A stretch of DNA of 64,000 nucleotides. Origin: Catellatospora vulcania (lineage in GTDB: Bacteria; Actinomycetota; Actinomycetes; Mycobacteriales; Micromonosporaceae). Within the stretch, counting starts at the first letter, position 1. Every line of letters starts with the position of its first letter. Below the pieces are notes generated by a model. That model made no database searches and was not told the origin of the DNA. It saw nothing but the letters and a program-made list of their open reading frames with translations. The stretch is taken from NCBI RefSeq assembly GCF_009720385.1, contig NZ_ML769302.1:592937-656936 (forward strand), written 5' to 3'. Shown in pieces: positions 47,206-50,029 of this stretch. A program made the position numbers and the translations under genes.

Positions 47206-47266
47206 GCAACTTTTAAAGAGTCGCGGCTTCGGACACCCTCCGAGGCCGCGACTCTTTAAAAGTTGC
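47206..47266. repeat. Dispersed palindrome, copy 4 (convergent junction)
   Basis: The most regular copy: a 22-base left arm (47206-47227) beginning GCAACTTTTAAAGAGTCGCG and its exact inverse at 47245-47266, with TTCGG/CCGAGG extending inward. Both neighbours end toward it. Confidence 0.92.
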
Positions 47267-47294: not shown

Positions 47295-47972
47295 TCAGGG
47301 GGTGGGGCGGAGCATGGGCGGGTGGAGGAGGCGGGCGGGGCCGCGGCGGAAGAGCTGGGCCGGGCGGCCGCGTTCGGCGGCGATGCTGCGGCCTACGGGT
47401 TCCACGAAGCCGGGGGTGCCGGTCACCTTGCGGTGGAAGTTGCGGGGATCGAGCCGCGCGCCCCAGACCGTCTCGTAGACCTCGCGCAGTTCGGTGATGG
47501 TGAACTCGGGCGGGCAGAAAGCCGTCGCCAGCGGGGAGTACTCCAGCTTCGCGCGGGCGCGCTCGACGCCGTCGGCCAGGATGCGCGCGTGGTCGAAGGC
47601 CAGGTCTGCGACGGGCAGCGCCGCCCAGGCCGCGCCCTCCGCGTCGCTGCCCGCGACCGGGGCGGGCAGGTGCGGCAGCAGTGCCAGATACGCCACGGTC
47701 ACCACCCGGCCGCGCGGATCCCGGCCGGGTGCGCCGTAGCTGGCCAGCTGTTCGAGGTGGCCCACCGGCGCGGTCAGCCCGGTCTCCTCCCGCAGTTCGC
47801 GTACCGCGGCCGCGTCGAGGTCCTCGTCGGGCAGCACGAAGCCGCCGGGCAGCGCCCAGACCCCCCGGTAGGGCTCGATGCCCCGCCGCACCAGCAGCAC
47901 CCGCAACTCGTTGTCCTGCACCGTCAGCACCACCAGGTCAGCTGTGACGAAGCACGCGGGAAAGTCGGCCAT
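47295..47972 (-). CDS. NrtR-like Nudix regulator with winged helix
   Basis: A 225-residue protein. The Nudix domain (about 8-140) has an intact box, GGFVLPDEDLDAAAVRELRE followed by ETGL, so it may still hydrolyse a nucleotide. The C-terminal winged helix (about 150-215) shows EFTITELREVYETVWG and LDPRNFHRKVTGTPGFVEP, typical of NrtR. NrtR proteins sense ADP-ribose or related NAD metabolites and repress NAD genes (known). Divergent from the SPFH/NAD-kinase-like pair, with two near-identical 21-bp operator candidates between. ATG 47972 is used; a GTG at 47987 is possible. Confidence 0.88.
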   Translation of the reverse strand: MADFPACFVTADLVVLTVQDNELRVLLVRRGIEPYRGVWALPGGFVLPDEDLDAAAVRELREETGLTAPVGHLEQLASYGAPGRDPRGRVVTVAYLALLPHLPAPVAGSDAEGAAWAALPVADLAFDHARILADGVERARAKLEYSPLATAFCPPEFTITELREVYETVWGARLDPRNFHRKVTGTPGFVEPVGRSIAAERGRPAQLFRRGPARLLHPPMLRPTP

Positions 47973-47977
47973 CTGAT

Positions 47978-47998
47978 TTATCACCACCTTGACGAGAA
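47978..47998. promoter_or_regulatory. NrtR-type operator candidate 1
   Basis: A 21-bp block starting TTATCACCACC and ending TTGACGAGAA, matching operator 2 at 17 of 21 positions. It covers the region just upstream of the Nudix regulator's ATG, fit for autorepression. Confidence 0.6.
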
Positions 47999-48011
47999 TG
48001 TATCACGGAGC

Positions 48012-48032
48012 TTATCGTCATCTTGACGAAAA
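48012..48032. promoter_or_regulatory. NrtR-type operator candidate 2
   Basis: Contains the perfect inverted repeat TCGTCA-TCT-TGACGA (48015-48029) with A/T flanks. It begins 34 bases from the start of operator 1, about three helical turns, and lies 37 bases before the SPFH gene's ATG. Confidence 0.7.
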
Positions 48033-48068
48033 AGGGACCGGGGAATCCTCCGAAGGAGAACGATCACG

Positions 48069-49106
48069 ATGGCTGACGTGTCCAAGCGCTTCTTCATGCG
48101 CCACCTGCGCAGCACGCCGACGAACTGGGTGCGCCACAGCGTGCGCGGCCAGGCCAAGCGGGAAGGCGTCGGCCTGGCCTTCTGGTACCGGCCGCTGACC
48201 GCCGTGCTCAGCGAGGTGCCGGTCGACGACCGCGAACTGCCCCTGCTGTTCCACGCCCGCACCAGCGACTTCACCGACGTCACCGTGCAGGCCACGGTGA
48301 CCTACCGGGTAGCCGACCCGGCCGTCGCGGTCGGCCGGCTCGACTTCTCGATCGACCCGTACCTCGGCAAGGCCCGCGCCCGCCCGCTGGACCAGATCGC
48401 GACCCTGCTCGCCGAGCTCGCCCAGCAGCCCGCGCTCGACCTGCTCACCAAGCTCCCGCTGGCCCAGGCGCTGACCGAGGTCGCCGCGGTCCGCGAGGCG
48501 GTGTCGGTCGCGCTGGGCAACGAGCCGCGCCTGTCCGACCTGGGCGTGCAGGTGGTCAGCGCCCGCGTGGTGGCGATCCGGCCCGAGCCGGAGCTGGAGC
48601 GCGCCCTGCAGACCCCGACCCGGGAGGCGGTGCAGGTCGAAGCCGACCGGGCCACCTTCGCCCGCCGAGCCCAGGCCGTCGAGCAGGAGCGCGGCATCGC
48701 CGAGAACGAGCTCCAGAACAAGATCGAGCTGGCCCGGCGCGAGCAGCAGCTGGTCGAGCAGAACGGTGCCAACACCCGCCGCAAGGCCGAGCTGGTCGCT
48801 TCCGCGCAGCTCGTCGAGGCACAGGGCCGTGCCGAGCGCGAGAAGCTGCTCAACGCCGCCGAGGCGGAGAAGGAGCAGCTCCTGGCCGAGGCCAAGGCCG
48901 CCGGTGTCCGGGCCCTCGGCGTGGCCCAGGGCGAGGCGGAGGCGGCCAAGCTCGCGGCATACCGGGACCTGCGCCCCGAGGTGCTGCAGGGCCTGGCGCT
49001 GCGCGAGCTGGCCGGTCAGCTGCCCGAGATCGGCCAGCTCACGGTCACTCCCGATGTCATCACGGGCCTGCTGTCGCGCTTCGGCGCGGGCTCGTCGGAC
49101 CGCTGA
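48069..49106 (+). CDS. SPFH/Band-7 domain protein without membrane anchor
   Basis: A 345-residue protein. SPFH domain at about 25-190 (AFWYRPLTAVLSEVPVDDRE, DFTDVTVQATVTYRVADPAV, LGVQVVSARVVAIRPEPELE), then a long charged coiled coil (ARREQQLVEQNGANTRRKAE, AEAEKEQLLAEAKAAGVRAL) and a C-terminal helix. SPFH proteins build ring scaffolds on membranes, but no N-terminal helix is seen here, so it may attach through a partner. AAGGAGA precedes ATG 48069. The NAD-kinase-like gene follows after 20 bp. A link to NAD(P) metabolism is inferred from this neighbourhood. Confidence 0.9.
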   Translation: MADVSKRFFMRHLRSTPTNWVRHSVRGQAKREGVGLAFWYRPLTAVLSEVPVDDRELPLLFHARTSDFTDVTVQATVTYRVADPAVAVGRLDFSIDPYLGKARARPLDQIATLLAELAQQPALDLLTKLPLAQALTEVAAVREAVSVALGNEPRLSDLGVQVVSARVVAIRPEPELERALQTPTREAVQVEADRATFARRAQAVEQERGIAENELQNKIELARREQQLVEQNGANTRRKAELVASAQLVEAQGRAEREKLLNAAEAEKEQLLAEAKAAGVRALGVAQGEAEAAKLAAYRDLRPEVLQGLALRELAGQLPEIGQLTVTPDVITGLLSRFGAGSSDR

Positions 49107-49126
49107 GCGAGCAGCGAGGAGGAGTC

Positions 49127-50029
49127 ATGAGCGCGACGCTGGCCCCGCGGGTGGTCGTGGTGTCCCGGCGCAGCGAGCTCGACGAGCTGCTGGGCCGGCA
49201 CGGCACGCGCGCCGCCGCGGCGTACTTCCTGAGGGAACGGGGGAGGGAGATCGCCGAGGTGGAGGCGCGCCACGCCGCGCAGGAGGCGGCGCTGTCGACG
49301 GTCAGCGCCGCCGTGCCGGCGGATTGGCGGCGCGGGCAGGTGCACCGCGACGACCTGTCCCGCTTCCTGTTCGCCGCCGAGGACATCGTGGTCACCGTCG
49401 GGCAGGACGGCCTGGTCGCGAACGTGGCGAAGTACCTGGCCGGGCAGCCGGTGCTCGGCGTGAACCCCGAGCCCGACCGCAACCCCGGGGTGCTCGCCCG
49501 GTTCGCCGCCCGCGACCTGGCGGACCTGCTGCCCGCCGTGCTCGCGGGCCGCGCCGCCACCCAGTCGCGCGCGATGGCGGTCGCCACTCTCGACGACGGC
49601 CAGCAGCTTGCCGGCCTCAACGAGATCTACGTGGGCCACCAGACCCACCAGTCGTCCCGCTACGTCATCACCACGCCGCAGGGCGAGCAGGAACGGCACT
49701 CGTCGTCAGGGGTGCTGGTGGGCACAGGCACCGGCGCCACCGGCTGGTGCGCCTCGGTCGCCCTGATGCGCAACCTCGCGAACACGCTGCCCGGCCAGGA
49801 CGCCGCCGACCTGTGCTGGTTCGTCCGCGAGGCGTGGCCCTCGCCGGCCACCGGTGCGAAACTCACCGCCGGCCGCATCGGCGCAGGCCAGCGCCTCACC
49901 CTGACCAGCGAGAGCGAGCGCCTCGTCGCCTTCGCCGACGGCGTCGAATCCGACCACCTCGTGCTGGCCTGGGGCCAGCGCATCACCATCGCCACCGGCA
50001 CCCGCCACCTCAACCTCGTCACCCCCTGA
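49127..50029 (+). CDS. Divergent NAD kinase-like protein
   Basis: A 300-residue protein of the ATP-NAD kinase fold. VTVGQDGLVANVAKYLAGQ stands where NAD kinases have GGDGT, NPEPDRNPG matches the NE/D motif, and SSSGVLVGTGTGATGW stands for the TPTGSTAY-type substrate loop. The second G of GGDG is changed to Gln, so activity or substrate may differ. It is encoded next to an SPFH protein and divergent from an NrtR-like regulator. GAGGAG precedes ATG 49127. It is not the housekeeping NAD kinase by sequence; true function unproven. Confidence 0.8.
   Translation: MSATLAPRVVVVSRRSELDELLGRHGTRAAAAYFLRERGREIAEVEARHAAQEAALSTVSAAVPADWRRGQVHRDDLSRFLFAAEDIVVTVGQDGLVANVAKYLAGQPVLGVNPEPDRNPGVLARFAARDLADLLPAVLAGRAATQSRAMAVATLDDGQQLAGLNEIYVGHQTHQSSRYVITTPQGEQERHSSSGVLVGTGTGATGWCASVALMRNLANTLPGQDAADLCWFVREAWPSPATGAKLTAGRIGAGQRLTLTSESERLVAFADGVESDHLVLAWGQRITIATGTRHLNLVTP

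Follow-up and report, generated by a model that had tools for sequence, protein, structure and literature searches.

An NrtR-type regulator gene divergent from SPFH and NAD-kinase-like genes in Catellatospora vulcania: a candidate NAD/ADP-ribose homeostasis module

The window analysed here is a stretch of 64,000 nucleotides from Catellatospora vulcania (NCBI RefSeq assembly GCF_009720385.1, contig NZ_ML769302.1, positions 592,937 to 656,936). At positions 47295–50029 it carries a gene for an NrtR-type regulator (nrtR) that is divergent from genes for an SPFH/Band 7 protein (spfh) and a protein with the NAD kinase fold (nadkL). NrtR control of genes for nicotinamide adenine dinucleotide (NAD) metabolism is known. 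The three genes are read here as an NrtR-controlled NAD/ADP-ribose homeostasis module, with a probability of roughly 60%, and they are probably a little-studied part of bacterial NAD management. The link to NAD and ADP-ribose is supported by an operator that the unit has in common with NAD and ADP-ribose genes of related genomes. The features of the unit, in positions of the window, are as follows.

47295..47987, minus strand: NrtR-type regulator gene; N-terminal Nudix domain with an intact Nudix box, C-terminal NrtR winged helix
47978..47998, no strand assigned: operator 1, TTATCACCACCTTGACGAGAA, repeat
47989..47994, plus strand: putative -35 element (TTGACG) for spfh, inside the right half of operator 1 (consensus reading only)
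48012..48032, no strand assigned: operator 2, TTATCGTCATCTTGACGAAAA, repeat
48013..48018, plus strand: putative -10 element (TATCGT) for spfh, inside the left half of operator 2 and separated from the -35 element by 18 bp (consensus reading only)
48069..49106, plus strand: SPFH/Band 7 protein gene, 345 residues; SPFH core followed by a helix of ~125 residues, without a membrane anchor
49127..50029, plus strand: NAD-kinase-fold protein gene (nadkL), 300 residues, NADK2-like; GQDG replaces GGDG
49400..49411, plus strand: GQDG motif, residues 92–95 of the kinase-like protein, read directly

The first-pass annotation had named an NrtR-like regulator, divergent from genes for an SPFH protein and a protein of NAD kinase fold with GQDG, and all were found where it had placed them, by Pfam profile matches and a direct reading of the motif. 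Its proposal that the three form one unit, which a lack of conservation in other actinobacteria would have undermined, was upheld by the search for the neighbourhood. The named loci, which comprise the best 80 of 423 confirmed relatives, are all assigned to Actinomycetota by record title; the SPFH gene adjoins the kinase-like gene in 80/80 of them and a divergent NrtR gene is present in 68/80. The two effector genes are 20 bases apart in the window; they overlap in 56/80 loci and lie within 30 bases of each other in 14 more. A sample of the order gave the same picture: 42 of its 298 genomes had a kinase-like match at E ≤0.001, two of them weak, and in the regions of the other 40, the window's included, SPFH is directly upstream in 40/40 and a divergent regulator present in 37/40, one of the three exceptions being cut by a contig end.

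Adjacency in 80/80 and 40/40 loci is a difficulty for a simple explanation, namely that an ordinary extra NAD kinase and an unrelated SPFH protein of membrane quality control happen to have a common promoter. Both folds are common and human NADK2, the closest solved relative, is a true NAD kinase, but the SPFH protein has no anchor and the change in the GGDG motif is fixed (see below). This explanation is considered unlikely.

The gene order recurs outside the phylum. In a plasmid collection, relatives were present in 57/72,556 records, 42 of them Rhizobium, and 11 of the 57 were opened for gene order. By annotation, the order NUDIX(-)/SPFH(+)/kinase-like(+) is found in two Rhizobium records and in Methylomonas, Providencia and Moraxella. 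An Acinetobacter record has NUDIX and kinase-like genes, with no SPFH gene listed between the neighbours in its incomplete gene table. The SPFH-kinase pair occurs in Roseomonas and Treponema, the latter with a NUDIX-domain gene ~4 kb upstream. Actinobacteria and proteobacteria both have the unit, and a spirochaete has the pair. The name 'ATP-NAD kinase PpnK-type protein' is attached to two Rhizobium etli records. No E. coli copy of the Providencia version was detected at blastn sensitivity. In Acinetobacter, Moraxella and Proteus records (L319, L320, L322), the unit or the kinase-like gene stands beside tet(H) or tet(J) resistance genes.

The two near-identical 21-bp operators noted in the first-pass annotation are 17/21 identical and 34 bases apart. 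Their position between the divergent transcription units stands, with the correction that operator 1 overlaps the first nrtR codons if the GTG start at 47987 is used. The start is probably the ATG at 47972, which fits the relatives better and leaves operator 1 standing 6–26 bp upstream of nrtR. When the genome of 8,828,844 bases was searched for TTATCGTCANNNTGACGAWAA at ≤3 mismatches, only these two places were found (control 0), which rules out chance repeats. Since there is no other site at this threshold, NrtR looks dedicated to the unit in this genome, and the possibility that the regulator binds only elsewhere, which would have told against the unit, is without support.

A search of the 250 bases preceding spfh with the pattern TTATCGTCA-N3-TGACGATAA (≤4 mismatches) gave exactly two operators in 68/68 named loci with an adjacent regulator. 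Over the 73 two-site loci, the spacing is 34 in 59, 33 in 5, 44–45 in 7 and 27 in 2. The T that completes TTGAC is present at site 1 in 73/73 loci and at site 2 in only 11/73, and TTGAC-N17/18-TATCGT is found in 66/73, the other 7 loci not fitting. The simplest reading is that site 1 would hold the -35 and site 2 the -10 element of the spfh promoter, part of the match being implied by the operator itself. With both elements inside operators, a bound repressor would thus be expected to exclude RNA polymerase.

Two further arrangements were seen. In L265 and L271, the gene divergent from spfh across the operator pair is arginine-deiminase-like (assigned by Pfam in L265 and, for L271, from an identical start sequence). 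A different palindrome, TTATAGTC-N5-GACTATTA or -GACTATAA, occurs near two more NrtR relatives, both of one family (L296, L298, L301), and in L301 a weaker palindrome of that other type precedes a gene that by eye resembles nadR/nadM.

The connection to NAD metabolism comes from the operator in other genomes. Twenty related genomes, chosen for carrying the unit, were searched at ≤2 mismatches; sites were found in 19/20 (control 0), most matches being the unit itself. Genome G306, of Streptosporangiaceae bacterium NEAU-GS5 (locus L136), carries, besides the unit, sites immediately in front of nadE, nadA and a nadB-nadC fusion (NCBIfam names), together with a fourth operator place without an explained target (L218). 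Additional sites lie by in-trans NrtR genes in G300, G301 and G303, and further matches without an assigned target occur in G308, G312, G314 and G322 (one G312 match was left out of the inspection).

A search of 394 genomes of the class at ≤1 mismatch gave 60 sites in 46 genomes and none with the reversed operator as control. Forty of the sites were fetched and comprise 16 modules (11 with and 5 without adjacent nrtR), 8 nadB-nadC, 4 nadE, 6 pnuC and 4 ADP-ribosylglycohydrolase genes, with 2 unclear. The ADP-ribosylglycohydrolase assignments are all from Pfam (4/4), and those of pnuC from Pfam in 2 and from the same start sequence in 4. By list comparison, 13 of the other 20 sites lie ~1 kb upstream of a kinase-like match, the remaining 7 being left out. 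Also by list comparison, in which relatedness inflates such figures, the kinase-like gene is present in 27/46 site-bearing genomes and in 65/394 overall. Matches that are unexplained or intragenic are L218, L219, L221, L222, L268 and L272, and the match in L220 did not reappear when the script's consensus was used. In L263, L266, L269 and L273, all of one family, the operator lies within ~42 bp of the called start of the ADP-ribosylglycohydrolase gene. In L268 (1173–2999), an operator-like site stands 73 bp upstream of the gene for a SIR2-like-domain protein, a possible NADase.

An NrtR relative is encoded in 20/20 genomes tested from two families with nadBC/pnuC or ADP-ribosylglycohydrolase targets. 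In a FastTree tree, two groups of in-trans copies, one of the nadBC/pnuC and one of the ADP-ribosylglycohydrolase family, fall among the module-linked regulators (judged by leaf order; support for the joining nodes was not printed). Other NrtR copies of the same genomes stand elsewhere, and the second NrtR of the window genome groups with copies that lack such an operator. Hence, the tie of this regulator group to NAD metabolism, which the first-pass annotation had taken from the NrtR family, found support in other actinobacteria: the regulator of the unit belongs to a group whose targets elsewhere, from the positions of its sites, appear to be genes that make NAD, take up its precursors and remove ADP-ribose.

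Regulon members of this kind, for NAD synthesis, uptake and ADP-ribose, speak against a different view of the unit, as a system of defence or stress that responds when NAD is destroyed (e.g. by phage-triggered NADases) and is switched on by ADP-ribose. Sensing of the ADP-ribose type would suit such a system, as would the patchy distribution (65/394 genomes), the copies in 57/72,556 plasmid records, the operator-like site 73 bp from the SIR2-domain gene, and a review that predicts Nudix-type regulators in anti-viral ADP-ribose systems (PMC9503650). PADLOC has no family for the SPFH or kinase-like protein, and the scan returned one 27.1-bit match, over the Nudix region of the regulator. No relative was confirmed in IMG/VR or in phage records, and a phage or prophage origin was set aside. 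A defence role is regarded as distinctly improbable.

The regulator matches NUDIX (PF00293, 79.5 bits) and NrtR_WHD (PF21906, 53.7 bits, cut-off 27), both above the cut-off. It scored 139.1 bits against the NCBIfam equivalog NF050029 (ADPR-responsive NtrR), under the cut-off of 400, and so falls outside that subgroup. Its solved relatives include AraR (5bs6) and 3gz5, labelled only MutT/nudix, which we take to be the Shewanella NrtR. The Nudix box is intact in 67/68 module-linked actinobacterial copies, or 68/69 with the window added and Arg demanded; none of 6 in-trans copies from the nadBC/pnuC family matches it. The five non-actinobacterial NUDIX proteins compared (two from Rhizobium and one each from Methylomonas, Providencia and Moraxella) are 35–42% identical to the window regulator, and NrtR_WHD was found in all 4 that were scanned. 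The second NrtR-type protein of the window genome (G000:C11, L191:4464-8374) heads an apparent operon with genes for a protein with weak kinase-family matches, a protein without a Pfam match and an adenylosuccinate-synthetase-like protein; similar genes occur in L186 and L308.

The SPFH protein belongs to the SPFH/Band 7 domain and fold (Band_7 PF01145, 54.5 bits, cut-off 23.6). It had been described as lacking a membrane anchor, and this held: a hydropathy search found no membrane segment, the highest 19-residue value being 1.2, so the N-terminal anchor of the stomatin, prohibitin and HflK/C type is absent. Among five other Band 7 proteins of the genome, this value is ~3.0 in three and 1.2 and 1.5 in two. 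The AlphaFold2 monomer model (pLDDT 84.1, pTM 0.50) starts with strands, and its structural matches are SPFH proteins that form rings and cages, with a large root-mean-square deviation along the helix. By their titles, vault structures with PARP4 and with ADP-ribose are among these matches, which makes the parallel with the vault worth testing, no more.

The kinase-like protein scored 19.9 bits against Pfam NAD_kinase, under the gathering cut-off of 25.5. The best solved match of the family profile is human NADK2 (E 4e-16, in two stretches), followed by bacterial NAD kinases. The canonical GGDG is absent: its second Gly is Gln in 68 and Pro in 12 of the 80 actinobacterial relatives, and Gln in 7/7 outside the phylum. 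By alignment with the two canonical GGDGT NAD kinases of the window genome (L192, L193), the Asp of GGDG is kept, as are the NE/D motif and the Thr-x-aromatic segment, in which Trp stands in place of Tyr; the Asp of region II is replaced by Ser, as in NADK2. Since those two kinases are present, a replacement of NAD kinase by the kinase-like protein is unlikely. In L147 (8349–8705, in the L142-L161 region), a second, partial kinase-like match of 53% identity lies ~2.5 kb downstream of the unit.

Whether these changes leave an enzyme bears on a further alternative, that the protein is a pseudokinase, binding NAD(H), NADP or ADP-ribose as a sensor and gating the SPFH oligomer without catalysis. 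The Gly to Gln/Pro change in the phosphate loop (80/80 in the phylum, Gln in 7/7 outside it), the Ser in region II and the two canonical kinases of the genome would all agree with this, but a pure sensor need not keep the catalytic Asp, the NE/D motif and the TGW segment, which are kept from actinobacteria to a spirochaete, and NADK2, with the same Ser-Gly and Trp, is an enzyme. The pseudokinase is a possible but less likely reading. In LmNADK1, the Asp of GGDG takes the 2'-hydroxyl proton, and the use of polyphosphate is influenced by the residue that follows GGDG (PMC8553519). Among phosphofructokinases, an altered motif of this kind is described as going with pyrophosphate replacing ATP (PMC12203962). 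These motif effects prompt the guess, by analogy, that the kinase-like protein may be an active kinase of dinucleotides whose phosphoryl donor or substrate (NAD(H) or ADP-ribose) has changed.

As an NAD/ADP-ribose homeostasis module, the unit may work as follows. NrtR dimers would bind the two operators and cover the spfh promoter, as is usual for the family, repressing spfh-nadkL and probably also nrtR. A rise of ADP-ribose or a related product of NAD breakdown would, by the example of studied NrtR proteins, free NrtR from the DNA, and the actinobacterial protein, with its intact Nudix box, may also destroy its own signal. The SPFH and kinase-like proteins, often encoded by overlapping genes, would act together, a soluble SPFH oligomer holding or gating an NADK2-derived kinase with an altered phosphate-binding loop and the catalytic Asp and NE/D motif kept; this enzyme might then supply or detoxify while NAD is broken down. 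A bolder and rather unlikely version is a widespread NAD-stress compartment, in which an anchorless, soluble SPFH cage of the vault or HflKC kind would be loaded with an NADK2-derived kinase for another donor or substrate (e.g. ADP-ribose) and switched by ADP-ribose via NrtR.

Several observations weigh against the homeostasis module. The window genome has no further operator target, so that the NAD link of this copy rests on relatives, and among the 20 related genomes nad genes were found behind the operator in G306 only (not every extra match was inspected). No site at ≤1 mismatch is present in 38/65 genomes with the kinase-like gene. Twelve named loci lack an adjacent NrtR gene: 5 keep both operators, 5 lack operators and 2 are cut by contig ends; the Roseomonas pair also has no NrtR gene beside it. 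The Nudix box is not intact in 5/5 proteobacterial regulators read, so signal hydrolysis is not general; a self-resetting sensor that destroys its ligand is possible for the unit in actinobacteria and is no general feature. For the regulator of Mycobacterium smegmatis, MsNrtR, the ADP-ribose effect is reported at 50 mM, a concentration far beyond what cells are likely to contain (PMC6800001); a degenerate Nudix box and no detectable hydrolase activity are also described there. Contact of the SPFH and kinase-like proteins is read from gene order alone, and the replacement of Gly by Gln or Pro in the GGDG loop might just as well reflect a loss of catalysis.

Regarding the loci without adjacent nrtR, all 10 genomes of the uncut loci have an NrtR relative elsewhere (42–75% identity). 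In both Plantactinospora genomes, the in-trans NrtR is 73–74% identical and carries two operators 34 bases apart. In Plantactinospora and Allorhizocola, a partner in NAD metabolism was sought for the in-trans NrtR and rejected, the divergent genes encoding an M28 peptidase and a PNP_UDP_1 phosphorylase instead.

The flanking genes of the window (NlpC/P60, LamG-like, TetR, thioesterase and polysaccharide deacetylase) were rejected as members of the unit, as tblastn placed them next to it in L082-L084, its nearest relatives, and otherwise gave just two distant matches to TetR, in L109 and L138. By clustering, with a crude gene caller that misses some copies, no neighbour family within ~5 kb occurs in more than 7 loci bar one. 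That family (15 genes, 13 loci) was taken as an artefact because it is antisense inside the kinase-like gene in both loci with positions (L099, L133). Where the NlpC/P60 and regulator genes converge, a long perfect inverted repeat with arms of 22 bases, seen by eye, occupies 47206–47266; it is probably a bidirectional terminator.

NAD homeostasis is central to every cell, and the two effectors of the unit have no assigned function as far as was found. The first-pass suggestion of a system not yet described is doubtful, as the pair may already have been predicted. SEED/RAST presumably carries the roles 'NrtR-regulated hypothetical OrfX, Band 7 protein domain' and 'OrfY, PpnK-type ATP-NAD kinase domain', and to our knowledge no function is assigned to either. 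If these names are right, both genes were put forward as NrtR targets around 2008, leaving only their function to be found. A literature search, which did not reach Rodionov et al. 2008, found no paper joining NrtR or NAD kinase with SPFH/band 7 and none with these names; SPFH is absent from the searched passages of the NrtR literature, including PMC6800001 and PMC9503650. As far as checked, what is apparently new is the occurrence across phyla, the fixed change to G[Q/P]DG, the paired layout of operators and promoter, and the operator common to the unit and nadA, nadBC, nadE, pnuC and ADP-ribosylglycohydrolase genes. The fixed loop in an NADK2-like protein offers a clean natural experiment on the choice of phosphoryl donor. 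Whether SPFH assemblies can serve as soluble cages for enzymes could be tested on an SPFH protein that lacks an anchor and is tied to a single enzyme.

The closest known system is MsNrtR-nadABC of M. smegmatis, in which a Nudix and winged-helix repressor likewise adjoins its targets with a palindromic operator between (PMC6800001). Auto-repression and release by ADP-ribose, reported there, would be features of the present unit too. The two systems differ in the operator (GTTTTCGA-N7-TCGAAAAC there, TTATCGTCA-N3-TGACGATAA here), the Nudix box (degenerate in MsNrtR, intact here) and the target (nadABC there, the SPFH-kinase pair here). Human mitochondrial NADK2 (7r4j, 7n29) has the same Ser-Gly and Trp in region II as the kinase-like protein, whereas the latter has G[Q/P]DGL for GGDGT and is encoded in an operon with SPFH and NrtR. 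Unlike HflK/C, Erlin, prohibitin and flotillin, the SPFH protein, known here as a monomer model only, has no N-terminal membrane segment; in its predicted solubility it resembles the major vault protein.

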